Under the pieces are notes generated by a model. It had not been told where the DNA came from. It was given only the letters and a program-made list of their open reading frames with translations, and searched no databases. A stretch of DNA of 54,719 nucleotides, from positions 1 through 54,719 of the IMG/VR virus record IMGVR_UViG_3300046010_009690. The stretch is one strand, 5' to 3'. Position 1 is the first letter of the stretch, and each line of letters opens with the position of its first letter. Source of the DNA: a virus. Shown here piece after piece: positions 15,225 to 36,468 of this stretch. The position numbers and the translations under genes were made by a program.

Positions 15225-15350
15225 TATACCCCCCTCTGTGGCGCTGTAGCGTAAAAAAAGGGGATATACTATAGGGGTAATTTACGAATATTAATATATA
15301 GGGGTAACACAAGAATATGTAATCCCCCCGCTACAATGCTACACTATATT
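15225..15350 (+). repeat. Inverted repeat arm in region A, paired with region B
   Basis: This stretch matches the reverse complement of about 34376-34500 over more than 100 bases with small gaps. It includes an exact 24-bp block at 15255-15278 (core GGGGATATACTATAGGGG), a TAACACAAGA block and a CCCCCCGCTACAATG block. The two arms lie 19 kb apart and bracket the replication and small-gene half of the window. Confidence 0.8.
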
Positions 15351-15367
15351 ATTGTCTCTTTTTTTGT

Positions 15368-15390
15368 ACGGGCGGGAACGGCATCAGAAA
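15368..15390 (+). repeat. Direct repeat copy 2 (CGGGCGGGAACGG core)
   Basis: Exact second copy of the 23-bp element at 15197-15219. It lies about 55 bases before the -35 of the primase promoter, which would suit an activator or initiator site. Confidence 0.8.
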
Positions 15391-15444
15391 TATAATTTGT
15401 GTGTAGCACCTATATATGCTACAAAACCGCTACAAACGCTACAA

Positions 15445-15473
15445 TTGACCGCGGGACGGTTTCGTGGTACCCT
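15445..15473 (+). promoter_or_regulatory. Promoter for the primase gene, conserved leader type
   Basis: TTGACC (15445-15450), a 17-bp spacer ending CGTGG, and TACCCT (15468-15473). It is followed by CGTTTATAGCGAGG, the same leader found at the 33.3-kb divergent promoters at matching distance. The -10 is poor by sigma70 standards, so an activator may be needed. The leader ends in the GCGAGG ribosome binding site. Confidence 0.6.
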
Positions 15474-15501
15474 TCCCATATCGTTTATAGCGAGGTTTGA
15501 C

Positions 15502-17034
15502 ATGGTCACTGATATTCAGGTGGAGCGTTTCGCTGCCCTCTACAAGGGTCTGGACCGAGTTCGAGGGGTCTGGAAGAAAACCGGCTACATGGAAACGGTC
15601 AAGGAGAAACCGACCCTTGATAATTTCCGGGACCACCTAGACGGGGATATCGGTATTGGTGTGGTGCCAATCGACGACGATAGCATGGTGCAGTGGGGTG
15701 CCATCGACATCGATGCTCACGAGGATGGGCAATTTATCCCCCTCCAGCCGTTGATACTTAAGATCGAGGAATACGGGTACCCGCTCATTGTGTGTCAGAG
15801 CAAGTCGCAGGGTGCACACCTCTACCTCTTCCTATCAGAGAGGCTTCCCGCGGCCCTCGTGCAGGGCGTTCTTAAGCAATGGGCTACTAATATAGGATAT
15901 CCTGGGGTCGAGGTCTTCCCGAAGCAGAAGAAGCTCTCGAAGGGGCAAGTCGGTAATTGGATTAACTTGCCATATTTTAATGCTGGGGATACGGTAAGGT
16001 TCGCTTGGTCCTCCGGGCAAAAGTTAACCCTCGATGAATTCCTCGACCGAGCCGAGGCATCGTTGTGCGACAAGAATCGGATGATGAGTTTGACCTTCGG
16101 GACCGACCATCAGGATGCGCCACCTTGCATCCAGCACATCCTGACCAAGGGTGGTGTGACTTCGGGCTCGCGCAACAATGCACTATTTAATATTGCCATT
16201 TATCTTAAGAAGGTCGACCCGAACAATATTGAAGAACCGTTGATGCAGATCAACTATGACAAGTCGATCGTCTACAAACCACTCCCGCGACGGGAGATTT
16301 CGACCATCGTATCGTCGGTCGGCAAGGGTGACTACGGCTACCGGTGCAACGAGGAGCCGATTTGTTCGCTTTGCGACAAAGAGCTTTGCAAAACCCGCAA
16401 GTTCGGGATCGGGCAGGGCAACAAGACGATGTTCCACGACTTCATGTTCGGTGGACTCAAGAAGATCATGACTGATCCGCCGAAGTATCTTGTCGAGGTG
16501 AATGGTCGCGAGATGGTGCTTGATCATGCGGTGCTGTTTAACTTCATCTCTTTCCAGCTCGCCTGTTTCGCGTATGCCGATCTCGTGATCCCGGATATGA
16601 AGAAGATTGACTGGCAAGCGACGCTTAAGCAGAAAATGGACACGATGGAGTGCATCGACGCACCTGAGGATGTCGGGCCGAAGGCAGTGGTGGGCGGCAT
16701 GCTCGAGGAATTTACTCGAGTCTGCGAGCGTTTGAGTGATGACAATAAGCCGAAATTTGGTAATATTGAGGATGTTCTCCGTGGCATTCCGGTGCTTATC
16801 GAGAACGAAGAGAAGCAGCCGACGGTGGTGTTCAGGTCCACTGATTTCATCTCCTTCTTGAAGAGGAAGCGGTCGGAAGAGGCGAAAGGTGCGGATCTCT
16901 GGGTCATCCTTCGTGGGCTCGGATGCGGTTATTCGAAATCGCGTGTTGGTAAAAAGGTGATCCGCCTTTGGCACAAACCCGCCAATCTCGCACCGACTGA
17001 TTTCCAACCGCTCAAGATCGAGGAACGTTTCTAA
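15502..17034 (+). CDS. Primase-polymerase (AEP superfamily, PrimPol)
   Basis: This 510-aa protein has the archaeo-eukaryotic primase signature. Motif I is WGAIDID (D69, D71), motif II SKSQGAHLYLF (S102, H106), motif III GVEVFPKQ (E137). A later Cys cluster (CNEEPICSLCDKELCKTRKF, about residues 284-303) fits a zinc-binding domain. AEP PrimPols make primers and can extend DNA. ATG at 15502 follows GCGAGG and gives a clean N-terminus; an upstream in-frame extension runs through the promoter and is rejected. The stop overlaps the next start (TAATG), coupling it to a SNF2 helicase. PrimPols are known in phages with PurZ such as phiVC8. Confidence 0.85.
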   Translation: MVTDIQVERFAALYKGLDRVRGVWKKTGYMETVKEKPTLDNFRDHLDGDIGIGVVPIDDDSMVQWGAIDIDAHEDGQFIPLQPLILKIEEYGYPLIVCQSKSQGAHLYLFLSERLPAALVQGVLKQWATNIGYPGVEVFPKQKKLSKGQVGNWINLPYFNAGDTVRFAWSSGQKLTLDEFLDRAEASLCDKNRMMSLTFGTDHQDAPPCIQHILTKGGVTSGSRNNALFNIAIYLKKVDPNNIEEPLMQINYDKSIVYKPLPRREISTIVSSVGKGDYGYRCNEEPICSLCDKELCKTRKFGIGQGNKTMFHDFMFGGLKKIMTDPPKYLVEVNGREMVLDHAVLFNFISFQLACFAYADLVIPDMKKIDWQATLKQKMDTMECIDAPEDVGPKAVVGGMLEEFTRVCERLSDDNKPKFGNIEDVLRGIPVLIENEEKQPTVVFRSTDFISFLKRKRSEEAKGADLWVILRGLGCGYSKSRVGKKVIRLWHKPANLAPTDFQPLKIEERF

Positions 17035-18698
17035 TGGTATTCGTGGATTTCAATGGTAAAGCGTTCATGGTGTCAGGAACTCCGACGATGCTTGGCGTAC
17101 TTAGGTCGATTCCTTCTCGTAGATTCGATAAGGAGAGCAAGCTCTGGATTTGCCCGCCTACCAAGACCAATATCGAATTTTTCAAGCGGTTCGGCGCAAT
17201 ATTCACCACGAAAGCGTCGAATTTCATCGAGACTCGGTCTGATATTCAGCGTGGTAAATTACCGTTGACTTTTAACTTCAAAACCGCACCGCTTAATCAT
17301 CAGATGGAAGCACTCCTGCGTTGCATCCCGCAGGACAATTATGCGCTCCTTATGGACCCCGGCACCGGTAAATCGAAGGTGATGATTGACGACGCAGCGT
17401 GCTATTTTCTTGACGGCCAATGCAACGCGGCGATGGTTATTTGCCCGAATTCGATTAAATCGAACTGGCGAGAGGAGATCGAGAAGCACTCGTCTATCGG
17501 GTATGATGTGCATGTTTATGATTCTGGCCAAAAGAAGGCGTTCGATAAGTGGATGACTGAGCCCTTCGCTGACGGAGTCAAGTGGGCGATCATGCCGGTA
17601 GAGTCATTCTCGCAGGGCGATGCGTACAAATACGCCGAGAAATTCGCACTTATCACGCGACCCGTATTGTATGTTGATGAATCGAGCCGCATTAAATCGC
17701 ATGATGCTAACCGCACCAAGGCGATAACCAAGCTTGGTCGTGCCTTCAAACGCAGGAGAATCGCAACCGGCACCGCGATAACCAAGGGGCCACAGGATCT
17801 GTACTCACAATACACTTTCATGGATCCGGACATTATTGGAGGCTCGAGTTTCTATGCGTTTCGCAATCGATACTGTGTGATGGGTGGTTATAAGCAAAAG
17901 CAAATTATCGGAGCGCAGAATGAGGAAGAGCTTTTGCAGCTTATCAGTCCGTACACCTTCCGCGCATCAAAGGCTGAGTGTCTTGATTTGCCGCCGAAAG
18001 TATATCAAGTGCGCCGCGTAGAGCCGAACCCTGCACAAAAGACCGCGTACACCGAACTCAAGAAAGAGGGCTACACCGAGTACGATGGCTCGATCGCATC
18101 GTTCACCAACGTGCTCGTGCGTGATTTACGGTTACAGCAGATTTCATCGGGTTTCTTTCCCGGTGCGAAAGTCGTCGATGGTATGATTCTCGAGAATCAA
18201 GTGAATCCCGAGCCTTTCCCTGGCAAAAACCCGAAGATTGAAGAGCTCCTTCAAGTCGTTGATGAGATCGACGGTAAAGTGATTGTGTGGTGTCGGTTCC
18301 AACGCGAAGTTACGCTCGCAGCGGAAGCTTTGTCGAAGGTTGCGCCCACTGTGACGTTTTACGGCTTAAACACTACCGAGGAGAATACACTTTCAAGGCA
18401 GCGGTTCATGAACGACCCTGATGTGCGATTCTTTGTCGGAACACAGAGTGCTGGCGGTATTGGCATCACATTGGTGTCCGCATCAACCGTTGTATATTTG
18501 AGTAACACATTCATGCTCGATGATCGAATCCAGAGCGAGGACCGCGCACATCGCATCGGGCAGACGAGCGAATCGGTATTGTATATTGATATCTTGATCG
18601 ACGGGGGTTGGGTAGATTCGCGGGTGCTTGATGCACTCAAGAACAACCGTAACTATGCCGATTGGCTGATGGAAGAAATACGGAAGCTTGCGTCCTGA
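17034..18698 (+). CDS. SNF2-family (SF2) helicase/ATPase
   Basis: This 554-aa protein has a short N-terminal region resembling a HARP-like domain (about residues 20-55, RSIPSRRFDKESKLWICPP). Walker A is DPGTGKS (108-114), motif II VDESS (near 220), and motif III-like RRIATGTAITKGPQDLYSQY. The C-terminal RecA lobe has GGIGITLVSAS and motif VI QSEDRAHRIGQ, which is diagnostic of SNF2 enzymes. It is an ATP-driven DNA translocase, probably working with the overlapping PrimPol gene in replication or fork remodelling. Confidence 0.9.
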   Translation: MVFVDFNGKAFMVSGTPTMLGVLRSIPSRRFDKESKLWICPPTKTNIEFFKRFGAIFTTKASNFIETRSDIQRGKLPLTFNFKTAPLNHQMEALLRCIPQDNYALLMDPGTGKSKVMIDDAACYFLDGQCNAAMVICPNSIKSNWREEIEKHSSIGYDVHVYDSGQKKAFDKWMTEPFADGVKWAIMPVESFSQGDAYKYAEKFALITRPVLYVDESSRIKSHDANRTKAITKLGRAFKRRRIATGTAITKGPQDLYSQYTFMDPDIIGGSSFYAFRNRYCVMGGYKQKQIIGAQNEEELLQLISPYTFRASKAECLDLPPKVYQVRRVEPNPAQKTAYTELKKEGYTEYDGSIASFTNVLVRDLRLQQISSGFFPGAKVVDGMILENQVNPEPFPGKNPKIEELLQVVDEIDGKVIVWCRFQREVTLAAEALSKVAPTVTFYGLNTTEENTLSRQRFMNDPDVRFFVGTQSAGGIGITLVSASTVVYLSNTFMLDDRIQSEDRAHRIGQTSESVLYIDILIDGGWVDSRVLDALKNNRNYADWLMEEIRKLAS

Positions 18699-18716
18699 CG
18701 CGCCCGGTGTTATAAT
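18688..18716 (+). promoter_or_regulatory. Sigma70-type promoter
   Basis: TTGCGT (18688-18693), a 17-bp spacer and a perfect TATAAT (18711-18716) preceded by TGT, giving an extended -10. It lies across the end of the helicase gene and just before the GTG-started gene at 18743, which has a strong AGGAGG site. Confidence 0.75.
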
Positions 18717-18742
18717 CCAAAGATAGAGTTATAGGAGGATAT

Positions 18743-21663: not shown

Positions 21664-23484
21664 ATGATAGAGTTATCTAAATATGATGTGGTCGCGCTCG
21701 ATACCGAGACGACCGGACTTCAATTCTGGAAGGATCGTGCTTATGCGCTCGTGTATGCAACGCCGGATGGCAAGTCGGACTGTCTCGACCTTCGGAAGCC
21801 CGAGGTGTTGTCATGGGCGCGTCGCGAGATCCCCAAGATTCGATGCGTGGCCGGTCATAATCTTAAATTTGATGCCCATTTCCTGCGCGAACTTGGTATT
21901 TCGATCATGGGCTCCGCCATGCGGGATACCATGGTTGCCGCGGCGCTGATCGACGAGCACCTCCCCTCTTACAGCCTCGATTTCGTCGGCAAAAAATACG
22001 TCGGTCTTGGTAAAGCGACCGAGACTTATAGCAAGCTTTCTGCCATGTTTGGCGGCAAAGCGACTCGCGAAGCTCAGATGATGAATCTTGTGAAGGCTCC
22101 GTGGGGAGTGATTCGTGATTACGCGATCCCTGATGCCGTCGCTACTTTGAAGCTTTGGCAGTGGCAAGAACAAGAAATCCGCAATCAAGAGCTCGAGGCC
22201 GTTTGGGACGTCGAGATGAAGCTACTTAACGTGCTTATCGACGTTGAGCGCCAAGGTGTCCGAGTGAACGTCGAGGCCGCGAACCGGGCTGTCCAAGACA
22301 TTTCGGAGATCGTCCGTCGCGAGCAGAATGAGCTGAACGAACTCGCTGGCTTTGAAGTTAACCCGAATCCGAGCAAGACGATCGCGCAGTTGTTTAAACC
22401 CGAGAAGGACGAGTCTGGTCGGTGGAAGCTGATTGATGGTACGTATGCCGAGACCACCGAGGGTGGTGCACCGTCGATCAACGCTGATGTGCTACGCCGC
22501 ATGCGGCATCCCGCTGCGGGCAAAATTTTAAAGTTGCGCCAGCTCATCAAGACCCGCGATACTTTTCTGCTTGGTCACATCCTCGGGCATCACCACGACG
22601 GTGTGATTCACGCGAACTTCAACCAGACGAAGTCGGATAATGATCTCGGTACTGGTACCGGCCGTTTGTCGTGCAACGCTCCCGCTTTGCAGCAGATTCA
22701 CAAGCGCAATAAAGAAGTCGCGCAGATCGTTCGCGCAGTGTTTGTGCCAGACGAGGGCCAAGAGTGGCACTGTCACGATTGGGCGCAAATGGACTTCCGT
22801 GTGTTCGCGCACTACGTGCAGAACCCACGTGTGTTTAAAATGTACCGTGAGAATCCGGACGCAGACTTCCACCAGATGGTATCTGATATGACAGGCCTTC
22901 CGCGATCACCGACCGTTGGTATCAAAGGAAACGCGAAGCAGATCAATCTCGGCCTCGTTTTCGGTATGGGTGAGGGTAAACTCGCGCAGGAGATGGGACT
23001 TCCGTACACCACCGAGACTGACAAGAGCGGTCGCGAGTGGACACGTGCGGGCGACGAGGCGAAGGAAGTCTTTCGTAAGTACCACGAGGCGGTTCCCGGA
23101 GTAAAGGATCTGTTGTCGTTGGCGTCGACTCGAGCCAAATCCCGCGGCCATGTGCGCACGATCCTCGGTCGCCGGATCCGGTTCCCCGGTGGGCAATACA
23201 CTCACAAGGCGGGCGGGTTGATATTCCAGGGTTCCGCAGCCGATGCCCTTAAGGTGAAGCTCGTCGAGGTCCACGAGGCCCTCCGCGGTACGGAGGCTAG
23301 GTTAATACTGAATGTGCACGACGAATTCGACGTGAGCGCTCCCGTTGGCTCCCGTGATACGATCGGCACTCAGGTACAGCGTGTCATTCGCCATTTCGAC
23401 GGCGAAGGCACACCAATAAAATTCGACGTCCCCATTATGTCCGATCTCGGCATAGGGCCGAATTGGTGGGAAGCGTCAAAGTAG
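21664..23484 (+). CDS. dpoZ: Family A DNA polymerase, DpoZ type
   Basis: This 606-aa replicative polymerase has a complete 3'-5' exonuclease: ALDTETTGL (D13, E15), GHNLKFDAHFL (N66, D70) and DYAIPDAVA (Y153, D157). Polymerase motifs are TGRLS (332-336), A = HDWAQMDFR (D372), B = KGNAKQINLGLVFGMG (K421-G436) and C = NVHDEF (D553, E554). No 5' nuclease domain is present. The usual steric-gate Glu of motif A is Asp (D377), and in the O helix the usual Phe and Tyr are Leu429 and Phe433. Its position directly before purZ matches DpoZ of known Z-genome phages. Confidence 0.85.
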   Translation: MIELSKYDVVALDTETTGLQFWKDRAYALVYATPDGKSDCLDLRKPEVLSWARREIPKIRCVAGHNLKFDAHFLRELGISIMGSAMRDTMVAAALIDEHLPSYSLDFVGKKYVGLGKATETYSKLSAMFGGKATREAQMMNLVKAPWGVIRDYAIPDAVATLKLWQWQEQEIRNQELEAVWDVEMKLLNVLIDVERQGVRVNVEAANRAVQDISEIVRREQNELNELAGFEVNPNPSKTIAQLFKPEKDESGRWKLIDGTYAETTEGGAPSINADVLRRMRHPAAGKILKLRQLIKTRDTFLLGHILGHHHDGVIHANFNQTKSDNDLGTGTGRLSCNAPALQQIHKRNKEVAQIVRAVFVPDEGQEWHCHDWAQMDFRVFAHYVQNPRVFKMYRENPDADFHQMVSDMTGLPRSPTVGIKGNAKQINLGLVFGMGEGKLAQEMGLPYTTETDKSGREWTRAGDEAKEVFRKYHEAVPGVKDLLSLASTRAKSRGHVRTILGRRIRFPGGQYTHKAGGLIFQGSAADALKVKLVEVHEALRGTEARLILNVHDEFDVSAPVGSRDTIGTQVQRVIRHFDGEGTPIKFDVPIMSDLGIGPNWWEASK

Positions 23485-23492
23485 GAGCTAAT

Positions 23493-24512
23493 ATGCGTTG
23501 TTACGATCTAATTATCGATTGTCAGTTCGGTTCCACCGGCAAGGGGCTGATCGCGGGTTACCTTGCTAAGAAAAATCGACCCGATACCATCATCACGGCG
23601 TGGGCTCCGAATGCGGGCCACACGTTCATTGACGAGAACGGTCGCAAATTCGTGCACACGATGCTCGGCAACGGTATCGTGTCGCCGGGCCTCAAGCGCG
23701 TTATGATCGGGCCGGGGTCGGTGATCGACGTTCATGCGCTGCTGGCCGAGCTGAATGCGTGTAGCGATTTGGTCAGCGTTGATCAGGTCATCATTCACCC
23801 GCAAGCCGCGGTTGTGTCACAGCGTCACCGCGACGAGGAAGCGGGGCCGATGACCAAAATCGGCTCGACCAAGAAAGGCACCGGTGCCGCGATGATTCAG
23901 CGCATTCGGCGCAATCCCGAGGATCTCAACAATGCCGCGACCGAAATCGCACTGACGCCGCTGTCGAAATGCTTGGTGACGGTGAAAGAGTGGCACGAGA
24001 TCATGCACGACGAGGTCGAATACGCTCAGGTCGAGAGTGCGCAAGGCTACTCGCTGTCGATGTACAACGGATTCTACCCGTACACCACGTCGCGTGATGT
24101 GTCGACTGCGCAGACGATCGCCGATTGTGGCCTTCCGTATGGCGTCGCTGGTCAGATCATCGGTACTTGCCGCACGTTCCCGATCCGCGTCGCTAATCGA
24201 TTCGACACTGACGGCAAGCAGGTCGGCTGGAGCGGGCCGCATTATGACGATCAGGAGGAGACCTCTTTTGAGGCCATCGGCCAGAAAACCGAGCTCACGA
24301 CGGTGACGAAGCTTCCGCGTCGGATCTTTACTTACAGCAAGGAGCAGATTCGTCAGGCGGTGCGGGTGAATGGCGTTACGAAGATGTTCCTGAACTTCGC
24401 GAATTACGCGACGCAGGAGCAACTCGACGAAATTGCCAATCACATTGAGTCGCTCACCGATTTGAACTGGCTGGGTTGGGGTCCGACCGAGGAGGACGTG
24501 CGCCGTGTCTGA
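23493..24512 (+). CDS. purZ: PurZ, aminodeoxyadenylosuccinate synthetase
   Basis: PurZ joins dGMP and aspartate to make the precursor of 2-amino-dAMP (dZMP). This 339-aa protein is a PurA homologue with QFGSTGKGLIAGYLAKK at the P-loop; the Asp that is catalytic in PurA (D13 of E. coli in GDEGKGK) is Ser14 here, the recognised mark of PurZ. Other conserved sites are APNAGHTF (H43), GSTKKGTGAA (124-133) and AQGYSLSMYNGFYPYTTS. It is shorter than bacterial PurA (about 430 aa). ATG at 23493 follows TAGGAG. Host adenylosuccinate lyase would complete the step. Its neighbours confirm the pathway. Confidence 0.93.
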   Translation: MRCYDLIIDCQFGSTGKGLIAGYLAKKNRPDTIITAWAPNAGHTFIDENGRKFVHTMLGNGIVSPGLKRVMIGPGSVIDVHALLAELNACSDLVSVDQVIIHPQAAVVSQRHRDEEAGPMTKIGSTKKGTGAAMIQRIRRNPEDLNNAATEIALTPLSKCLVTVKEWHEIMHDEVEYAQVESAQGYSLSMYNGFYPYTTSRDVSTAQTIADCGLPYGVAGQIIGTCRTFPIRVANRFDTDGKQVGWSGPHYDDQEETSFEAIGQKTELTTVTKLPRRIFTYSKEQIRQAVRVNGVTKMFLNFANYATQEQLDEIANHIESLTDLNWLGWGPTEEDVRRV

Positions 24513-24927
24513 GATCCGAGAACTTCAGCATTTGATCGGCAGCTGGGCCGATGAAGTGTTTCCTGATCGCACCATGCAATCCGCTGCTTTGAAGCTCTAC
24601 GAGGAAATCGGCGAAATGCTGCGCAATCCGTCGAGCGAGGACGAACACGCGGATATTTACATCATGATGTTCGATCTATCGCGCATGTACGGGATTGACG
24701 TCGCGGCGGCGGTTCGTCGGAAGATGGCTCGCAACCGTCTCCGTTCGTGGCGAAAGACCGAGACCGGGACGCTTCAGCACACGGGCGAGTCCGAGGATGA
24801 GTGGAGCATGTACGAGTGTGGCCGTCGGGACGCGATCGACGGCCGATTCCCGTTCTTCGCTGACGAGATGTACATGAAAGGCTATCATGATGCCGGAGCT
24901 GAGAATGAAGGATCAAATCCCGATTGA
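24505..24927 (+). CDS. mazZ: MazZ-like MazG-type (d)NTP pyrophosphohydrolase
   Basis: This 140-aa protein starts with GTG after GAGGAGG and overlaps purZ. The all-alpha NTP pyrophosphatase signature is present: ExxE (E34, E37) and ExxD (E47, D50), followed by a basic helix VRRKMARNRLRSW. In Z-genome phages MazZ converts dGTP to dGMP, supplying PurZ, and may act on dATP. Residues about 103-131 (YECGRRDAIDGR, then YMKGYHDAG) look like a ribosome-modulation-factor-like segment fused at the C-terminus. The substrate is inferred from context. Confidence 0.8.
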   Translation: MSEIRELQHLIGSWADEVFPDRTMQSAALKLYEEIGEMLRNPSSEDEHADIYIMMFDLSRMYGIDVAAAVRRKMARNRLRSWRKTETGTLQHTGESEDEWSMYECGRRDAIDGRFPFFADEMYMKGYHDAGAENEGSNPD

Positions 24928-29535: not shown

Positions 29536-29744
29536 TGTCGGTGGATAACGAGTCGCCGCCCGGAGCGTGGCGGGATGAAATGGCGCGTATGCCTTGGCGT
29601 TACTCGCAGCAAGCCAAAGTCGATGAAGCGCTTGCTGAAATACGCCGAGCGGGTCTTGCGCTTGAAGCTAACGTTCTGGCGCAAGAGATTAATGTACTTA
29701 AGGCCGAAGTAGAGTCACTGCGTAACAAAGGTAACAATAGATGA
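29535..29744 (+). CDS. Small coiled-coil protein
   Basis: This 69-aa protein has a Trp-containing N-terminus (SPPGAWRDEMARMPWRYSQQ) and a long predicted helix rich in Ala, Glu and Leu with heptad character. It overlaps both neighbours (TAATG before, ATGA into datZ). No family is recognised; it may partner the next gene product. Confidence 0.6.
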   Translation: MSVDNESPPGAWRDEMARMPWRYSQQAKVDEALAEIRRAGLALEANVLAQEINVLKAEVESLRNKGNNR

Positions 29745-30268
29745 TAGAGAATTTATCGAATAACGACATCCTGCTCGCACAGCACGTTAAGCGCTGGCAC
29801 ATGATCAGGATGCAAAGTCAGCAGAGCGTCGCTGAACACTCATATAATGTTGCTATGCTCACGATCCGGATGCTGCGTCACCTCGACAAGGAAGGTGTGT
29901 ATGGTATCACTCCCGAGGAGCAGCTTGCGGTGATGGAGTGGGCGCTGTGCCACGACATCCACGAGATCGAACACGGCGACGTCCCTTCGCCCTCGGCGGT
30001 CAACCGAGACGATGTGGAGGACATTTTCTGGAACAAGCGTGGCCGCGAAGTCGGTCCTTCCTTTGAAGCTTGCAATTTCGTGTGCTTGATGGACAAGGTG
30101 GAGGCGTATCTGTATTTCATTCACCATGGCTGCGACGGGATGCGCGACGGCAAAGCGATCAGTCAGTACTTGTATGACCGAGTGACGTACTCGCTCGATC
30201 AGTTCAGCCAGCCAATCCGCAATTACGTTAACGATTTGATCCGCACCGCGGCGAGGTTATATCTTTGA
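29741..30268 (+). CDS. datZ: DatZ-like HD-domain dATP triphosphohydrolase
   Basis: DatZ removes dATP so that the polymerase incorporates dZTP. This 175-aa protein has the YfbR-type HD signature: RWH (18-20), QSVAEHSYNVAML (H33), ALCHDIHEIEHGDVPSP (H71, D72) and LMDKVEAYLYF (D118), giving the full H-HD-D metal site. Length and motifs agree with DatZ of Z-genome phages. It is encoded 5 kb after purZ in the same transcription unit, separated by the glycosyltransferase cassette. A general 5'-nucleotidase of the YfbR family is the alternative; the purZ context favours DatZ. Confidence 0.85.
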   Translation: MIENLSNNDILLAQHVKRWHMIRMQSQQSVAEHSYNVAMLTIRMLRHLDKEGVYGITPEEQLAVMEWALCHDIHEIEHGDVPSPSAVNRDDVEDIFWNKRGREVGPSFEACNFVCLMDKVEAYLYFIHHGCDGMRDGKAISQYLYDRVTYSLDQFSQPIRNYVNDLIRTAARLYL

Positions 30269-30666
30269 TTGTACGTACGCACGATAGTGAACTCGCTTTC
30301 CAGCGCAAAGTTATCCGGGCGTGTGCGGCGGTCGGGGTGCCGGTGCAGAAGTTCAACGACAACTTCTCTCACGGCATCCCGGACCTGTTCATAGGTGAGT
30401 ACGGATGGGTAGAGCTGAAAGTCCCCGGAGGCTCTCTCCGGGGGCCGCAGGTACTATGGGCTAAGAAATTCTCGGGTCGCCCGCTGCCGGTGATCCTGCT
30501 GTTCTCGGATGGGCGGGTGTTCGACCTCGCCCGGTGCACTCCGGGCAAGACCACTAAGCTTTGGTTCGAGAGGAACGCCGGGGCCGCACTCGACCCCGGC
30601 TCCTCGCCTATCTGCGGCTATTCAATGGGATCCGCGGTCGAATCCACCCCTTCGGCGTCATCGTAA
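30265..30666 (+). CDS. VRR-NUC-type nuclease
   Basis: This 133-aa protein starts with TTG overlapping the datZ stop, preceded by GCGAGG. The PD-(D/E)XK-like core is visible as SHGIPDLFIGEYGWVELKVP (D, then E-x-K), followed by a Gln helix GPQVLWAKKF, the VRR-NUC pattern. Such stand-alone nucleases may resolve branched DNA. The last 59 bases overlap the convergent minus-strand gene, and two GC-rich hairpins lie inside the coding sequence (30423-30443 and 30570-30605). Confidence 0.75.
   Translation: MIVRTHDSELAFQRKVIRACAAVGVPVQKFNDNFSHGIPDLFIGEYGWVELKVPGGSLRGPQVLWAKKFSGRPLPVILLFSDGRVFDLARCTPGKTTKLWFERNAGAALDPGSSPICGYSMGSAVESTPSASS
30570..30605. terminator. Possible bidirectional terminator hairpin
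   Basis: GAGGA plus CCGGGG pairs with CCCCGG plus TCCTC around a 10-base loop, inside the 3' end of the VRR-NUC gene. It lies where the rightward unit and the leftward operon converge. There is no T tract, so termination is uncertain. Confidence 0.4.
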
Positions 30667-30778
30667 ATCCGACCGCGAGTAGCGCTTCGTCGGTCCGGCA
30701 CGCGCCATCGACACGTTTGTGAGCCCTGATCGAGTCCGGGTTAGCGAATTGCTTTTTGCACTCTTTGCATATTCTCAC
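30608..30778 (-). CDS. Small zinc-finger protein
   Basis: This 56-aa protein begins RICKECKKQFANPDSIRAHK and continues to GACRTDEALLAVGF, a C2H2-like finger (C, C, H, C). GTG at 30778 overlaps the stop of the preceding leftward gene and sits after GGAGGG, so it is preferred over GTG at 30793. It is the last gene of the leftward operon and overlaps the convergent nuclease gene. Confidence 0.6.
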   Translation of the reverse strand: MRICKECKKQFANPDSIRAHKRVDGACRTDEALLAVGFTMTPKGWIRPRIPLNSRR

Positions 30779-30891
30779 CAGTAGTCCCTCCACCCTCGCT
30801 TTGCCGCCCAGTCAGGCGGTGGCACGTGCGCCCACTCATTCAGTCTGCGCCATTTCCAGTCCCGGTACATCCTCTTGATCCAGTCGATCAC
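30775..30891 (-). CDS. Tiny Trp-rich protein, coupled by GTGA overlaps
   Basis: This 38-aa frame reads VIDWIKRMYRDWKWRRLNEW, then PPPDWAAKRGWRDYW. Its GTG overlaps the stop of the upstream gene, and its TGA overlaps the GTG of the downstream gene, so both junctions are GTGA. This perfect packing, repeated across the operon, supports a real gene despite its size. Basic and Trp-rich composition suggests a binding peptide. Confidence 0.55.
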   Translation of the reverse strand: MIDWIKRMYRDWKWRRLNEWAHVPPPDWAAKRGWRDYW

Positions 30892-31487
30892 GGTTCGATC
30901 TCCTTTGCAATCCGGGCGAGGTACCGGGCAATCTCTTTATGTCGACGGATGATTCGTTCGATCTTCGCGAGCGCTTCCAGAGCTTCGTCCAGCTCTTGCT
31001 CATCGGTATCCCTACTTATGGTGGGGGTGGCGATGGGCTTGGCCTCCGGAGCCTTCTCCGTAACCGGCGTGGCGGTAAACACGATCTTTCGGTAGATCAT
31101 CCCGATCGGAGTGTTGGTCACCCCTTCGGTGGTCTCCACAACCCGGAGGTTCTTGAGAATGGTAACTTCCGATATCCCAGGGAGTACCGACCGCAGGTAG
31201 GCCTTGAGGTCATCCTTCGTGACCTCCTGCCCCTCGTGCCGGTGTAGATAAGCGAGAATCTCCTTCTTCGCCGCGCCGTATTTGATCCGCTTGCTGTCCA
31301 CCATATATCCAGCCCTCTTCATTCTCGCTAAGAAGTTATTGAATGCCCGGTGATCGCTCGGTGTCCCACTGTGGGTGATGATGTCGCGACCGTTGGGCGA
31401 ATAGAATTGGTGATGACCGCGGGTAGTGCGGTCATGTTGCCAGCCCTGTGCCAACGCTTCTCGTATCACGTGATCCATGTCGCTCAT
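30888..31487 (-). CDS. HicA-like N-terminal domain protein
   Basis: This 199-aa protein starts at ATG after GAGGAGC. Residues about 1-60 (GWQHDRTTRGHHQFYSPNGR, then SDHRAFNNFLARMKRAGY) resemble the dsRBD-like HicA fold with its central His. Residues about 70-115 (KEILAYLHRHEGQEVTKDDL) look winged-helix-like, and the C-terminus is a coiled coil. No HicB partner is adjacent. An RNA- or DNA-binding regulator is inferred; toxin activity is not shown. Confidence 0.55.
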   Translation of the reverse strand: MSDMDHVIREALAQGWQHDRTTRGHHQFYSPNGRDIITHSGTPSDHRAFNNFLARMKRAGYMVDSKRIKYGAAKKEILAYLHRHEGQEVTKDDLKAYLRSVLPGISEVTILKNLRVVETTEGVTNTPIGMIYRKIVFTATPVTEKAPEAKPIATPTISRDTDEQELDEALEALAKIERIIRRHKEIARYLARIAKEIEP

Positions 31488-31665
31488 TATAATGCTCCTC
31501 AGCTATGATGATATCGTATCTCTTGATCCCGCGGTGCAAGGCCGTTCTGACCGTGGACGAGGGTACGCCCCACTCGGCCGCGATGTCCTTGTACTGGCGG
31601 GTCTTGTTCAGCTGTTGATCAAGTAGGTACCTGTACTGCTCGAGTGTTAATTGTACTGGTTTCAT
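31432..31665 (-). CDS. Small HTH protein
   Basis: This 77-aa protein contains QYRYLLDQQLNKTRQYKDIA, then AEWGVPSSTVRTALHRGI, a helix-turn-helix similar to sigma-region-4 or small phage regulators. It overlaps the downstream HicA-like gene by 56 bases and is ATGA-coupled to the upstream gene. A transcription regulator of early genes is inferred. Confidence 0.6.
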   Translation of the reverse strand: MKPVQLTLEQYRYLLDQQLNKTRQYKDIAAEWGVPSSTVRTALHRGIKRYDIIIAEEHYNERHGSRDTRSVGTGLAT

Positions 31666-31940
31666 GTCTCACCCCTCGCCCGAATCGCGGCGGCGCAGAA
31701 CTTTGCTACCGCGTGTGGCATTGGCTGACTATCTTCGTGGCTATTGCTGTAAATGTTATCTGCCATTTTCTCACACGCCTTCGCACACGCCTCCCGCTCG
31801 GCGGCGGCAACAAGGGCGGCGAAGCGTTCAAGTTCCTCTAGGTAAAACAAAGCCACTTCTTCACCAAAATCATAATTAATAAAACTTGTAACTCTGCCAT
31901 TCGCTTCTAGCGTCATGCGGGTAATGTCGTCGCGGTTCAT
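31662..31940 (-). CDS. Conserved phage hypothetical protein
   Basis: This 92-aa protein has the opening NRDDITRMTLEANGRV, a Glu-rich helix (YLEELERFAALVAAAEREAC) and KACEKMADNIYS. This Cys/Ala-rich helical pattern is common in phage accessory regions with no known function. It overlaps both neighbours. Confidence 0.6.
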   Translation of the reverse strand: MNRDDITRMTLEANGRVTSFINYDFGEEVALFYLEELERFAALVAAAEREACAKACEKMADNIYSNSHEDSQPMPHAVAKFCAAAIRARGET

Positions 31941-32350
31941 TTCGCCCCCCTCATGCGGTTCCCGAGGTTCATCCGCTGCATACCGATATTGAGGTGGCCA
32001 TACTTGGCGCGGAGCGTCCGGACGGGCTCCCCGAGCGCCTTCGCTGCAATCTGGTACATTTCCTTGACGTCAGTGCCACGAAGCTGCTGCGCGACCTTAT
32101 CATTGATGTCGATCGTGCGGTTGCCGTGAACGGTTAGACCGAGCCCGCGGACGTACTTGCTCATGTTGGGCTCGAGGATGCCGTGCTTCTGCTCGGATTT
32201 CAGCTTACGGCCGGTCATCACCGAGTAGGTGGTCTCGCAATTACCACAGTGCATCGACTCACCACGAACGAGCGGCCCGACGCGATTCGACCCGCAGTGC
32301 GGGCATTCCTTCTTGTAGTCAATCTTCTTGGTTACATTCAGCTTTGCCAT
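31937..32350 (-). CDS. Zinc-ribbon protein
   Basis: This 137-aa protein has CPHCGSNRVGPLVRGESMHC, then GNCETTYSV, two CxxC knuckles of a zinc ribbon. A helical basic C-terminal half follows (KALGEPVRTLRAKYGHLN). It may bind nucleic acid or modulate host transcription early in infection, by analogy with small phage zinc-ribbon proteins. It lies in the leftward operon. Confidence 0.65.
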   Translation of the reverse strand: MAKLNVTKKIDYKKECPHCGSNRVGPLVRGESMHCGNCETTYSVMTGRKLKSEQKHGILEPNMSKYVRGLGLTVHGNRTIDINDKVAQQLRGTDVKEMYQIAAKALGEPVRTLRAKYGHLNIGMQRMNLGNRMRGAK

Positions 32351-32516
32351 AATCTATCTCCTTCAGAAATGTAGCTACCCATCTATCAAATTCCCCGAGA
32401 TCCGTGAATCGCCTGATGTAGCGCAGATTCATCGAATCTCGGACTACGATCACCTTGGCTCCACCGCGAAGCGTTACCAAGGTGATCTTGTAGCCATCAA
32501 TATACCAATCGGTCAC
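32319..32516 (-). CDS. Small hypothetical protein
   Basis: This 65-aa protein, WYIDGYKITLVTLRGGAKVI followed by NLRYIRRFTDLGEFDRWVAT, has an alternating beta then helix pattern. It overlaps the zinc-ribbon gene by 32 bases and the upstream gene by ATGA. Function unknown. Confidence 0.55.
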   Translation of the reverse strand: MTDWYIDGYKITLVTLRGGAKVIVVRDSMNLRYIRRFTDLGEFDRWVATFLKEIDYGKAECNQED

Positions 32517-32695
32517 TTGAACGCGGCCATCAACGCATCGCTGAGGGCTTTCATACCATCCGTAGACTCCGAGTAATTGCGCTCAGCGTAAGCTTCGGCA
32601 ACAGACTTAGAAAAGAAGCCACCTTCCACGACTTTACCATCGACCACGATGTCATAGCCGCGAGATTGTTTGTTCTTCACGATTTTGTACGTCAT
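32513..32695 (-). CDS. Small hypothetical protein
   Basis: This 60-aa protein begins YKIVKNKQSRGYDIVVDGKV, then FFSKSVAEAYAERNYS, a beta-hairpin plus helix layout frequent in small phage early proteins. The stop overlaps the next start. Function unknown. Confidence 0.6.
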   Translation of the reverse strand: MTYKIVKNKQSRGYDIVVDGKVVEGGFFSKSVAEAYAERNYSESTDGMKALSDALMAAFK

Positions 32696-32697
32696 GA

Positions 32698-32931
32698 TTA
32701 GATCTCCTCTGCGCGGGCTCCTTCGCGCAAAGCGTCAATGCGCGGCATCATGTCAAACGCTTCAGCAACGGCGGTAGCGAGCTCGCGAGCTGCGAGAGAT
32801 TCGCCACAATCCATGACAAATTGCAGCCTCATCGCCGCATCATTCAGCGCGTTGCCGTTGTTGCTCGAGGCCTTCGCTCTGCCGATGAGATTGATGGCTT
32901 CGGTGACGGCTTTCGTTTCGTAATAATTCAT
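32698..32931 (-). CDS. Small helical protein
   Basis: This 77-aa Ala-rich protein (TEAINLIGRAKASSNNGNAL, then RLQFVMDCGESLAARELATA) looks fully helical. It is the first gene after its own conserved promoter at 32967-32995. Function unknown. Confidence 0.6.
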   Translation of the reverse strand: MNYYETKAVTEAINLIGRAKASSNNGNALNDAAMRLQFVMDCGESLAARELATAVAEAFDMMPRIDALREGARAEEI

Positions 32932-32966
32932 GTTAAATCCTCTATAAGCTATAAATCGACGGAGAA

Positions 32967-32995
32967 ATTACATCACACCTTGAAGGCTTACACAA
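32967..32995 (-). promoter_or_regulatory. Leftward promoter, conserved leader type
   Basis: On the minus strand: TTGTGT (32995-32990), a 17-bp spacer (ends CAAGGTGTGA) and TGTAAT (32972-32967). It is followed by TTTATAGCTTATAGAGG, a variant of the shared leader. The whole block aligns with the promoters at 33.3 kb. Confidence 0.7.
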
Positions 32996-33238
32996 TTATA
33001 TGCCACGTCGCACGATCGCGAAAAGATCGGTCTTGTAAGCAGCAGCCGGGAGACTGCAACCCTCGAGACGCTCCCACTTGTTCCAACGACCCTCACGCTC
33101 GGTAAGGAACCGAATCACCGGATTCACCCACTGACGACGCCACAACGTGCCGACGTCATTGATCGCATACTGAATCTTGAGCGGACGGCCAGTGATCGTG
33201 CAGATGCGCTCGTAGACGGGAACTTTGATGCCTTTCAT
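32996..33238 (-). CDS. Small hypothetical protein
   Basis: This 80-aa protein begins MKGIKVPVYERICTITGRPL and includes WRRQWVNPVIRFLTEREGRW. ATG at 33238 follows GCGAGG of the conserved leader; a longer frame would read through that leader and is rejected. It is the first leftward gene from the divergent hub. Function unknown. Confidence 0.65.
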   Translation of the reverse strand: MKGIKVPVYERICTITGRPLKIQYAINDVGTLWRRQWVNPVIRFLTEREGRWNKWERLEGCSLPAAAYKTDLFAIVRRGI

Positions 33239-33268
33239 TTCATGTACCTCGCTATAAACTATGAAGAA

Positions 33269-33297
33269 ATTGTACCACACCTTGAGACGCCGCGCAA
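33269..33297 (-). promoter_or_regulatory. Leftward promoter of the divergent hub
   Basis: On the minus strand: TTGCGC (33297-33292), a 17-bp spacer ending AGGTGTGG, TACAAT (33274-33269), then TAGTTTATAGCGAGG. This is nearly the same block as the rightward promoter 50 bases away. Confidence 0.8.
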
Positions 33298-33345
33298 TTA
33301 TCCCCTCCCTTGAATATGGCTTGAAGGCTCCTTGAAGGGAGATAA
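33298..33345. promoter_or_regulatory. Operator-like repeats between divergent promoters
   Basis: An imperfect inverted repeat, ATTATCCCCTCCCTTGAA against TTGAAGGGAGATAATT, lies exactly between the two -35 boxes. Three TTGAA copies sit in the centre. Placement suits a regulator that controls both promoters. Confidence 0.6.
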
Positions 33346-33374
33346 TTGTGCGGCTCCTCGAGCTGTGGTTTAAT
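33346..33374 (+). promoter_or_regulatory. Rightward promoter of the divergent hub
   Basis: TTGTGC (33346-33351), a 17-bp spacer ending AGCTGTGG, TTTAAT (33369-33374), then TAGTTTATAGCGAGG containing the ribosome binding site for the gene at 33402. Confidence 0.8.
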
Positions 33375-33401
33375 TCGTCTATAGTTTATAGCGAGGTAGT
33401 T

Positions 33402-33575
33402 ATGAAGACATCATACCGAACGATCAAGAGCGCGAACCGAGCCGGGTTCTACCGTATTTGTCGCATCGTCGAGCCCGGTACGGGCCGATACACCACGGCC
33501 ACGTACGAGACCGTCGTCGATCGCGCCACCGCCGAACGCTTCGCGAAGAAGCACGGCTTGTCGATGCCGCAGTAA
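33402..33575 (+). CDS. Small basic protein
   Basis: This 57-aa protein (SYRTIKSANRAGFYRICRIV, then TATYETVVDRATAERFAKKH) is basic with a beta-beta-helix look. It is the first rightward gene of the hub with a GCGAGG site. Function unknown; early expression is likely. Confidence 0.65.
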   Translation: MKTSYRTIKSANRAGFYRICRIVEPGTGRYTTATYETVVDRATAERFAKKHGLSMPQ

Positions 33576-33581
33576 TTTCGC

Positions 33582-33597
33582 CATAGTTTATAGCGAG
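33582..33597 (+). promoter_or_regulatory. Leader element copy without clear -35
   Basis: ATAGTTTATAGCGAGG precedes the ATG at 33604 and matches the leader of the hub promoters. A weak AGTAAT lies upstream but no -35 at 17 bp is seen. It may act only in the RNA, as ribosome binding site or stability element. Confidence 0.6.
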
Positions 33598-33603
33598 GTA
33601 ATT

Positions 33604-33822
33604 ATGGAACGTGGTACCCGATTCGAAGTCCATCTTGTTTATTCTGATGGCGCGTTTTTGACCAGCAACACCACGACGCCATTTAAGCTCGTGCGATCGT
33701 GCGCGGAGGATTGCTGGAGTGTTCGTGACCTCGAGGACAACACCCGCTGGGTGTTTGGCACACTCGAGGAGGCGATCGAATGGATCACGTGGAACAGTGA
33801 TGATGTGAACGATACCGTTTAA
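33604..33822 (+). CDS. Small hypothetical protein
   Basis: This 72-aa protein has RGTRFEVHLVYSDGAFLTSN and EDNTRWVFGTLEEAIEWITW. The layout is beta-rich then one helix, as in many small phage accessory proteins. It follows the leader element. Function unknown. Confidence 0.65.
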   Translation: MERGTRFEVHLVYSDGAFLTSNTTTPFKLVRSCAEDCWSVRDLEDNTRWVFGTLEEAIEWITWNSDDVNDTV

Positions 33823-33847
33823 TTGATAGCCAATAGGAGTATTGATC

Positions 33848-34072
33848 ATGGGTAATTTCGTGTCGATCGACGAAGCGGTGACGTTTTTCTTTGCCCGTGG
33901 GTTTGCGTGCATCCATTACATGGGCGAAGGACGCATCATGCATAAGTATGATCGGTTCTTGGACGAGAACGAGTTCATCCACGTGCGGCCGATGTACGAG
34001 GAGGGGGTGGTCGCTTACGAGATCACCGGCGACCAACTGCAGGATATGCTCGAGCGGAGGATGGCGGCATGA
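33848..34072 (+). CDS. Small hypothetical protein
   Basis: This 74-aa protein, GNFVSIDEAVTFFFARGFAC followed by HKYDRFLDENEFIHVRPMYE, starts at ATG 33848, eight bases after AGGAG. Its stop overlaps the start of the tiny membrane protein. Function unknown. Confidence 0.6.
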   Translation: MGNFVSIDEAVTFFFARGFACIHYMGEGRIMHKYDRFLDENEFIHVRPMYEEGVVAYEITGDQLQDMLERRMAA

Positions 34073-34158
34073 CCGAACTGTGGACGCTCTTTTGGCTCTG
34101 GACGGGTATCGGAGCTATGGCCGCGATATGTGCGATATTTTATCCGGAGGAGTGGTGA
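34069..34158 (+). CDS. Tiny single-pass membrane protein
   Basis: This 29-aa frame reads TELWTLFWLWTGIGAMAAIC, then AIFYPEEW. Its core is one uninterrupted hydrophobic segment. The ATG overlaps the upstream stop (ATGA) and CGGAGG lies in front. A small membrane protein made early could alter the host envelope or block superinfection; that is inference. Confidence 0.55.
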   Translation: MTELWTLFWLWTGIGAMAAICAIFYPEEW

Positions 34159-34620
34159 TGTAGCATCTACAGAAAATTAGATGCTACACGGGAGCGTAGC
34201 GTAAACGCAACAATGTAGCGCGGATGCAACACAAAATGTTTGGTGTGGGTAAATCACCGACGACCATCCTGCGGTCATTGTAGCGGCTAATATGGGTTTT
34301 GTAGTCATTGTGTAGCATAGGGGGGTGCTACACACGAACTATATTTCTCATATCGGTGGGAACCGTACAAAAAAAGGGCGATATACTATAGTGTGGCATT
34401 GTAGCGGGGGGGATATAGTATCTTGTGTTATCCCTAGGTATATATTTATATGCTTCTACCCCTATAGTATATCCCCTTTTTATTTGTGGAGGGGGTATGG
34501 ATGTGCGAACAGGGTATAGTATCCCCCCGCTACATGCTACAAATGTGTTCTCTACACGGTCGGGAACGTTTCGAGTGCGTGTAGCGGTTGTGATATCATG
34601 CCCGCTACAAATGCTACACC
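34159..34620. promoter_or_regulatory. Non-coding region B: TGTAGC hexamer cluster
   Basis: No convincing gene is seen in 34159-34706. Twelve TGTAGC sites in either orientation start at 34159, 34183, 34214, 34279, 34311, 34327, 34400, 34529, 34536, 34580, 34604 and 34613. AT-rich blocks and the paired arm of the long inverted repeat lie inside. Related GGGAACG motifs occur near 34355 and 34557. A hairpin GCCTGT/ACAGGC follows near 34635. An origin, partition or transcription control role is inferred from likeness to region A. Confidence 0.55.
34376..34500 (-). repeat. Inverted repeat arm in region B, paired with region A
   Basis: The reverse complement matches 15225-15350 with small gaps, including the exact 24-bp block at 34458-34481. 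A partial second copy of the GATATACTATAG core lies in direct orientation at 34379-34390, so region B holds both orientations. Confidence 0.8.
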
Positions 34621-34706
34621 GGACTGAAGCCGGGTGCCTGTAATTGCTTCACAGGCCAGCCAATGTTATCATCACTGCATCCGGGCAGTCAAGTACTTTA
34701 AGCGAT

Positions 34707-35465
34707 ATGCCGTCGAATGAATCAAAGCGTACCATCCTGAAGAAGAAGGCTGGTGGACAAAAGAACGTCATTGACGGCAAAATGCCTCCTCCACGTCAAC
34801 GCGGAATCCTAGACGTGGACCCCCGCCCCCTGCACGGCATGGGTGATGTAGCAATGGCTGCACTCGAGCAAGTGCTCGGTTTTACATTCGATGAGATGCG
34901 GGCCAAGTACGTAGAGTCCATCGGCGGTGAACATACGATTCGCAGCTTCACGACCGATAAGGTTCGTGGTGACACTCCCGAGGAGAAGGTCGCGAGAGTC
35001 GTCGCTGATATGATGCGATTTCTCGCTGAATTCAAGCAAACGAAGGACGTGATTAAAGCTTACAATATCGACGGGCTTTCCCGTGCACGTGCTATGGAAT
35101 GGAAGTCGCGTCATCGGTGGTTTAGTGATTTATGGGACCAAATCAATGAAGAGCGTTTTGACGCCGCGGAGCGTGCGCTGTTCGATCGCTCTGTGCACGG
35201 CGTTGAAGAGCCGATCGTTGCGAATGGCCAGATTGTAGGTGCGAAGACCAAGTATTCAGACGATCTTTTGAAGTTCCTGCTCGCTGGTAACCGGGCTACG
35301 ATCTATCGCAAGGCTGAGGAGAAAATCCGGCAGCAGATCGACGTCGAGATGAAGGTGAAGGGCGGGCTCGGGATCGAAGGCCTGGACCTCAAGAAGCTCT
35401 CGACAGCGGAGCTCGATCAATTGCAAGCGCTCCTCGACAAGGCGCAGGAGAAGGTAGATGGCTAG
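34707..35465 (+). CDS. Terminase small subunit-like protein
   Basis: This 252-aa protein has a basic disordered N-terminus (SKRTILKKKAGGQKNVIDGK). A helical core follows (TKDVIKAYNIDGLSRARAME, FSDLWDQINEERFDAAERAL), and it ends in a coiled coil (LDLKKLSTAELDQLQALLDK). Helical DNA-binding and oligomerising organisation plus its position before the large terminase support the call. ATG at 34707 is chosen because the upstream frame lies in region B. Its end overlaps the next gene. Confidence 0.6.
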   Translation: MPSNESKRTILKKKAGGQKNVIDGKMPPPRQRGILDVDPRPLHGMGDVAMAALEQVLGFTFDEMRAKYVESIGGEHTIRSFTTDKVRGDTPEEKVARVVADMMRFLAEFKQTKDVIKAYNIDGLSRARAMEWKSRHRWFSDLWDQINEERFDAAERALFDRSVHGVEEPIVANGQIVGAKTKYSDDLLKFLLAGNRATIYRKAEEKIRQQIDVEMKVKGGLGIEGLDLKKLSTAELDQLQALLDKAQEKVDG

Positions 35466-36468
35466 GGGTGGGATTAAGCCGCCGAAACCGCGGCCGGTAA
35501 AGGAAGCAACGCTGACCGATGTGAGCGATTTGTTTAAGCCCGAGGTGTACGATCGTCTCGGGCCGATCGGCACGATGAACATGCTCCAGACTTTGACCAC
35601 TGCGGCCAAGATCCCCGAGGTCACGAACGTTCCGGCGTTGATTGATGAGCCTGTGCTTCCTGCTCTTGCCGGTGAGCCAGCTGCGCAAAAGAAGGTTCAA
35701 CGTCGTGTGTCTGAGGCTAAGACCGGGCTCGAGTCACCGAAGCGCCGCGAAATCTTGAAGGCGGCGCGTGATGTGGCCGGTGCCACGCTTGTACCGATCC
35801 CGACGTCTGCGAAGGACGTTCTAATCAACGAAGTGGTGAAGCCCGCGGCAAAGGCAGCGATTCCTGATGCTTCCATTCAGGCCGCGATCGCATCGTTCCT
35901 TAAGCCAAAATTAAAGCCTGTACAGCTCGAGCGTATTGGCCGCAAGAATTTCGAGCGGACCATGGAAACCGGTGAGGATGAATTCGATCCGATTTCACCG
36001 GCTGATATATCGCGTCACTCCGGGATCCCTATCGAGGACGTCAACGATTTCCTCGGTCGCAATAAGCTCGACCCTGGGCTCGTGCTTTCTGACGTCGCTC
36101 GAGATTTGTATAATTATAAAGGCTATGAAGACGAGATTTTTGACACACTCGATCTTGATGATGTAGTCAACCGGGGTGGGCCTAACCCGTTCGAGCAAGC
36201 GATTGAGGAATACCTCAAGCAGAACCCTAAGGCTGATTTGTCTAATTATAGTGACGACGACATTCAAGGGATCGCCGCGCTAGCTAATGACTACATTTTC
36301 GAGAATACGCACGGTCCTCAATTAAAAGAATTATCCATGTTGGTCGGCGATAAAGAGGCCAAGACCGTCAGAGACGCAGTTCGCCGTCGTTACGACGATT
36401 ATGCGGGCAGTCTTTACGAAGGATTCGGTGAGCGAGTGGTCGATTATATCGAAGAGTATATTAGATAA
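35458..36468 (+). CDS. Hypothetical protein in the packaging region
   Basis: This 336-aa protein has a Pro/Lys-rich N-terminus (RGGIKPPKPRPVKEATLTDV). A region with ISPADISRHSGIPIEDVNDF that resembles a DNA-binding helix pair comes next, then an acidic C-terminal half. It lies between the two terminase genes and overlaps both. A packaging or head-assembly role is likely, but no family is recognised. Confidence 0.6.
   Translation: MARGGIKPPKPRPVKEATLTDVSDLFKPEVYDRLGPIGTMNMLQTLTTAAKIPEVTNVPALIDEPVLPALAGEPAAQKKVQRRVSEAKTGLESPKRREILKAARDVAGATLVPIPTSAKDVLINEVVKPAAKAAIPDASIQAAIASFLKPKLKPVQLERIGRKNFERTMETGEDEFDPISPADISRHSGIPIEDVNDFLGRNKLDPGLVLSDVARDLYNYKGYEDEIFDTLDLDDVVNRGGPNPFEQAIEEYLKQNPKADLSNYSDDDIQGIAALANDYIFENTHGPQLKELSMLVGDKEAKTVRDAVRRRYDDYAGSLYEGFGERVVDYIEEYIR

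Follow-up and report, generated by a model that had tools for sequence, protein, structure and literature searches.

Cluster K mycobacteriophages carry start-associated sequences (SAS), 13-bp repeats that contain a Shine-Dalgarno (SD) sequence and typically lie 3-7 bp before the starts of non-structural genes; their function was left unexplained (PMC3203893). In Adephagia, an upstream extension of the repeat (ESAS) has been proposed to hold -35/-10 promoters (PMC11373665). Here we describe a comparable arrangement in a 54,719-base IMG/VR virus record, analysed at its full length (the window). Like SAS, the window motif TTTATAGCGAGG is a short, non-palindromic, SD-containing repeat near the starts of unrelated non-structural genes (PMC3203893; PMC11373665; PMC12699233), and, as with ESAS, only some copies carry an upstream extension with a putative -35/-10 promoter. 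The letters differ, however: the window has TATAGTTTATAGCGAGG where cluster K SAS have GGGATAGGAGCCC, and the motif does not match that consensus within two deviations. The window holds four exact copies and two variants, compared with 11-19 copies in cluster K phages, and its copies stand on both strands, unlike cluster K SAS; the phages are unrelated. The 17-bp imperfect inverted repeats of ESAS were found within no single unit in a repeat search of 30500-34800. By analogy, the module appears to work like ESAS plus SAS; it is not a member of that family, because its sequence differs and the 17-bp inverted repeats are absent.

The window derives from a freshwater-type phage that, judging from its genes, probably uses a modified adenine in its DNA. 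The Z-genome (2-aminoadenine) gene set is present (phrog_1211, 3.5e-82; PF04447, 4.5e-7; phrog_7076, 5e-19; DNA_pol_A, 1.9e-55), with these genes:

21664-23484, plus strand: DNA polymerase A
23493-24512, plus strand: PurZ-like
24505-24927, plus strand: dATP/dGTP pyrophosphohydrolase (MazZ-like)
29741-30268, plus strand: dATP triphosphohydrolase family (DatZ-like)

A 187-bp inverted repeat (15255-15436 / 34298-34481, 77% identical) flanks the replication/small-gene block. Both copies sit in GCTACAA-rich stretches (15 GCTACAA in the window, 3.9 expected), and these flanks look like iteron arrays, perhaps marking paired replication origins. A tRNA search found none.

Recurrence and geometry of the module

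The units and the genes behind them are as follows.

15445..15473, plus strand: promoter A (PrimPol operon), -35 TTGACC 15445-15450, 17-bp spacer ending GTGG, -10 TACCCT 15468-15473
15480..15495, plus strand: leader A ATCGTTTATAGCGAGG, beginning at the predicted +1 and followed by ATG 15502; exact motif
15502..17034, plus strand: PrimPol (AEP primase + PriCT-1; Pfam AEP-TOTE 1.5e-12, PriCT_1 1.7e-8; phrog_21866 6.4e-102)
18688..18738, plus strand: fifth unit, -35 TTGCGT, 17 bp, -10 TATAAT 18711-18716, leader ATAGAGTTATAGGAGG 18723-18738
32939..32995, minus strand: unit B, -35 TTGTGT 32995-32990, -10 TGTAAT 32972-32967, before ATG 32931
32960-32939, minus strand: unit B variant leader GTCGATTTATAGCTTATAGAGG, RBS 6 nt farther than in the others
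33247..33297, minus strand: unit C, -35 TTGCGC 33297-33292, -10 TACAAT 33274-33269
33262-33247, minus strand: unit C leader ATAGTTTATAGCGAGG, before ATG 33238
32996..33238, minus strand: 80-aa gene behind unit C, no family
33346..33396, plus strand: unit D, -35 TTGTGC 33346-33351, -10 TTTAAT 33369-33374
33381-33396, plus strand: unit D leader ATAGTTTATAGCGAGG, before ATG 33402
33402..33575, plus strand: 57-aa gene behind unit D, homologue in relative L102
33583..33598, plus strand: unit E, leader only ATAGTTTATAGCGAGG, directly after the stop of gene 33402-33575 and before ATG 33604
33604..33822, plus strand: 72-aa ORF behind unit E
33245-33305 / 33338-33398: arms of a 61-nt inverted repeat, units C and D, 80% identical
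33310..33338: operator-like CTTGAAGG repeats between the divergent promoters C and D, CCTTGAATA at 33310, GCTTGAAGG at 33319 and CCTTGAAGG at 33330

The motif occurs exactly at 15484+, 33258-33247(-), 33385+ and 33587+, where 0.01 copies are expected, and 0 of 100 shuffles reach four; this count is motif-first, with the motif picked after inspection. All four copies stand shortly upstream of an ORF start codon and outside structural genes. A genome-wide test of start-side 11-mers, based on a custom gene caller, gave no significant result for the window (30/200), since the genes at 33402 and 33604 had escaped the caller. Significance was reached in Barton, VLCpiS6a, SH-Ab and PSA28, and likewise in POR1, phiVC8 and DSL-LC04; the recurrence in these last three implies that start-side reuse in itself is not rare, and the motif-first count supersedes this test. 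At the level of sequence, the evidence is the combination of promoter and leader and its conservation, not the promoter part alone.

An earlier note on this DNA had described four promoter blocks with the leader at fixed distance and identical spacing including the ribosome binding site (RBS), plus a leader before the gene at 33604. Its -35 positions (15445, 32995, 33297 and 33346) are correct, each with a 17-bp spacer ending in GTGn, and a module common to the PrimPol operon and the divergent small genes is well supported. The list missed the unit at 18688+ (TTGCGT-17-TATAAT), which precedes a Pam3 gp32-like gene (18743), and the copy at 33587+, though an exact leader, has no -35 at the right place. 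The fixed distance holds at 15445+, 33297- and 33346+: all three match exactly the 51-base composite TTG-N16-GTG-N-T-N4-T-N12-TATAGCGAGG, for which 0.06 matches are expected even with three mismatches allowed, and TTTATAGCGAGG lies exactly 10 nt 3' of an extended -10 promoter with a 17-bp spacer. At 32995-, by contrast, the leader reads TTTATAGCTTATAGAGG. Similarly, GAGG stands 18 nt after the -10 in units A, C and D, and also in 18688, but 24 nt after it in unit B, and the spacing from GAGG to the start codon varies (A 6, B 7, C 8, D 5 and E 5 nt) where the note had it identical. From this geometry, transcripts would start 7 nt after the -10, which in C and D is the first base of ATAGTTTATAGCGAGG.

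The leader reaches beyond a plain RBS (UAUAGC), an extension for which anti-SD pairing alone does not account. On folding, the leader RNAs proved no less structured than usual (z -0.7 to +1.7), and an Rfam search of 30000-35500 gave no match.

Could this recurrence reflect recent duplication only, with the C/D inverted repeat and unit E as rearrangement by-products, and ordinary promoters and RBSs under no shared regulation? The 80% identical arms of C and D would fit, as would unit E, a direct repeat of the downstream half of D (34 nt beginning at the -10, 85% identical), and the co-orientation of the two small genes in L102. Unit A, however, lies 18 kb away and has just 16-18 of 37 promoter-region positions in common with C and D, but nevertheless matches their 12-nt leader base for base, with no change in distance, and the module is conserved in a relative (L008) at 79% overall identity. 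We regard duplication alone as unlikely.

Two further features lie in the leftward direction. A two-codon ORF (ATG AAA TGA, 33230-33246, minus strand) overlaps the start of the 80-aa gene (ATGAAATGAAAGG), a possible case of termination-reinitiation, and a 199-aa protein (30888-31487, minus strand) has an N-terminal HicA-toxin-like domain (2.8e-6).

Promoter quality and candidate readers

All five promoter units have the 17-bp spacer and GTGn of extended -10 promoters, with moderate hexamers. In layout (TTG..., 17 bp, TGn, T....T) they resemble host sigma70 extended -10 (TGn) promoters; unlike ordinary ones, they are followed directly by a conserved leader, and their -35 is variable in its second half. 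Some elements are poor sigma70 matches (the -10 TACCCT of unit A and the -35s TTGTGC/TTGCGC), and promoter scores are only moderate. In a generic sigma70 scoring, the three small-gene promoters rank only 23rd-33rd in the window, and a strict consensus scan misses them. No match to sigma region 2 was found in the phage, with controls working; the phage RNA polymerase family PF00940 was unmatched in the window, but control genomes were equally silent. The earlier note had proposed coordinated expression by one factor. The shared module supports coordination, but on the best reading of these promoters the factor would need to be nothing beyond host sigma70 RNA polymerase acting at an extended -10 (TGn).

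Alternatively, a trans-acting factor encoded by the phage, DNA- or RNA-binding, could read the -35 (TTGYGC/T) together with the CTTGAAGG repeats, or could read the leader. One candidate regulator is encoded downstream in the leftward gene row:

31432..31665, minus strand: 77-aa protein with a sigma-region-4-like HTH (Pfam Sigma70_r4_2, 1.3e-5, 25.2 bits, just below the cut-off of 25.7)

Co-evolution with such a factor would be expected to produce lineage-specific letters with identity within a genome, and both are found. TTGTGC-like -35s recur in another relative (L093), and the exact 9-mer CCTTGAAGG is found only at 33330 and at 32978-32986, inside promoter B; the clustering of CTTGAAGG repeats between C and D is suggestive of a possible operator. 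On the other hand, a structure search with the predicted model of the HTH protein gave no support (E >= 2), no relative of the protein was found in phage records, and the -35 of unit A (TTGACC) is a better host -35. Moreover, the leader variants of the Klebsiella-type phages described below, which are kept by their genes while their middle bases vary, fit plain selection equally well. We consider a phage-encoded reader quite unlikely, and very unlikely the more specific proposal that, in phages with this replication module, lineage-private leaders are read by such a factor, either an RNA-binding protein or the sigma-region-4-like HTH at TTGYGC -35s. If true, control of the replication operon and small genes would be phage-specific at both levels, transcription and translation, with incoming DNA that possibly contains 2-aminoadenine as the source.

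Conservation in close relatives

L008 is the only divergent relative that spans the PrimPol unit, and no relative spans the small-gene units with the module. It is 79% identical over about 10 kb and keeps both replication-operon units. Its PrimPol unit retains TTGACC-17-TATCCT, GTGG and ATCGTcTATAGCGAGG, with the leader ATCGTCTATAGCGAGG, while much of the spacer has changed; its counterpart of 18688 retains TTGCGT, the 17-bp spacer, GTG, TATAAT and ATAGAGTATAGGAGG.

In L102, a homologue of the 80-aa protein (91%) is followed by a co-oriented gene whose product is homologous to the 57-aa protein, with an alignment score of 113 against a maximum of 41 in 1000 shuffles. Thus the same two small genes are divergent in the window, each behind its own copy of the module, and co-oriented without the module in L102, which indicates that the module goes with the phage lineage and not with the genes. 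Within a lineage, one version of the leader precedes genes of different origin. The exact leader and composite patterns were found nowhere in IMG/VR outside this lineage, and window positions 30000-35000 have no nucleotide match among phage records.

L093 has the second replication gene of the window and the 137-aa protein. ATAGAGG occurs in it ten times; several of these sites follow TTGTGY-17-(GTGn)-TnnAAT promoters, whereas others have no such promoter. ATAGAGGATTTAA is common to L093 and unit B. Common descent of the promoter letters of the window and L093 is not claimed, the pattern being found in only six contigs, which we estimate to be about chance.

Homologous leaders might also serve as sites of sequence exchange that allow small genes to be shuffled, a role similar to one proposed for the promoter early stem-loops of T4-like phages. 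The divergent and co-oriented arrangements of the two genes, and a leader that precedes unrelated small genes, would be expected of such a site. Yet in L008 the copy at PrimPol has not moved, and other relatives likewise retain theirs in place with gene-specific variants; this role appears highly improbable.

Reused leaders of other sequence were also seen elsewhere. In the terminase relatives L065 (403, 931) and L069 (338, 7425, 7954), TTGACCTAATATnATTAGGGTGGTATAA promoters coincide in part with the palindrome CCTAAT..ATTAGG and stand before a leader, TATAACTTAATAACGGAG, that is reused; they likely form a promoter/operator family. In L025, L039, L040 and L078, a reused leader, ATAACTCAATAACTGGAGAACT, precedes adjacent small genes in 2-3 copies per contig.

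Parallel units in phages with a related PrimPol

Through PrimPol and a 137-aa protein (31937-32350), the window is related to ten phages, which infect Acinetobacter (Barton, JeffCo, DMU1, pB23, SH-Ab 15497), Providencia (Kokobel2), Klebsiella (VLCpiS6a, K21lambda1), Salmonella (PMBT28) and Pseudomonas (PSA28). An adenylosuccinate synthetase (PurZ-type) is annotated in six of these records; the corresponding genes are labelled hypothetical in the others.

Five of the phages, from Acinetobacter, Klebsiella, Pseudomonas and Providencia, reuse other start-associated sequences, of the GAGAT-nn-GAGAT type (exact copies: three each in Barton, Kokobel2, VLCpiS6a and PSA28, four in SH-Ab 15497; 0.0005-0.005 expected in each, for motifs picked after inspection). 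All 16 copies stand before ORF starts, and four of the five phages have an exact copy between a promoter and PrimPol; the Kokobel2 copy has diverged (GAGATTTGAGAG). Upstream of PrimPol, Barton has TTGACC-17-TTTAAT followed by GAGATTAGAGAT, SH-Ab has TTGACG-17-TTTAAT followed by GAGATAAGAGAT, and PSA28 and VLCpiS6a have CGTGATATACT followed by GAGATATAGAGAT and GAGATACAGAGAT, respectively. Other short repeats, GGTAAC, GCAACC and TGGAACGG, also occur upstream of PrimPol in relatives.

As in the window, the start-side repeats of SH-Ab 15497, PSA28, VLCpiS6a, PMBT28, K21lambda1, Barton and Kokobel2 include a PrimPol copy behind a promoter and further copies at other gene starts. Their letters differ from those of the window, being of the GGAGAT-nn-GAGATG type and mostly overlapping the ATG. 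Each genome of the Klebsiella-type group has 7-8 variants, alike in GAGAT...GAGAT but different in the middle bases, and a given gene mostly retains its variant across phages. Concerted evolution of the leaders is unsupported, because these variants follow the gene.

Discussion

The explanation that we favor as probable joins host sigma70 promoters to a recurring leader for translation initiation; through these units the replication operon and the small genes would be co-expressed, with early timing predicted. Each unit would be an extended -10 host-sigma70 promoter, TTG...-17-(GTGn)-T....T, and its transcript is predicted to open with a start-associated leader, rich in A/U (consensus AUAG-UU-UAUAGCGAGGU), in which the SD sequence lies. 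Host RNA polymerase would fire all units together without any phage product, and would thereby express the PrimPol replication operon as well as both divergent small-gene rows. The leader itself may be a reusable element for translation initiation, which would explain why it occurs alone within a gene row (33587). Since it stands without a promoter both there and in L093, it probably acts in part on translation, and it likely adds a second level of control. Because parallel modules precede PrimPol in related phages, co-expression with replication genes is suggested and expression is probably early, as the PrimPol operon and a module that would need no phage product also lead us to expect.

Since 2011, start-associated sequences have lacked an explanation, and in the literature searched they are known from cluster K mycobacteriophages only; no paper joining them with Acinetobacter phages was found, most subscription journals lying outside the coverage of the search. 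The same architecture, in different letters, in an unrelated group that includes cultured phages makes SAS function testable, and opens the question of whether the leader enhances translation, binds a factor, or does both. The module also gives compact transcription-unit predictions for phages with a PurZ-type replication module.
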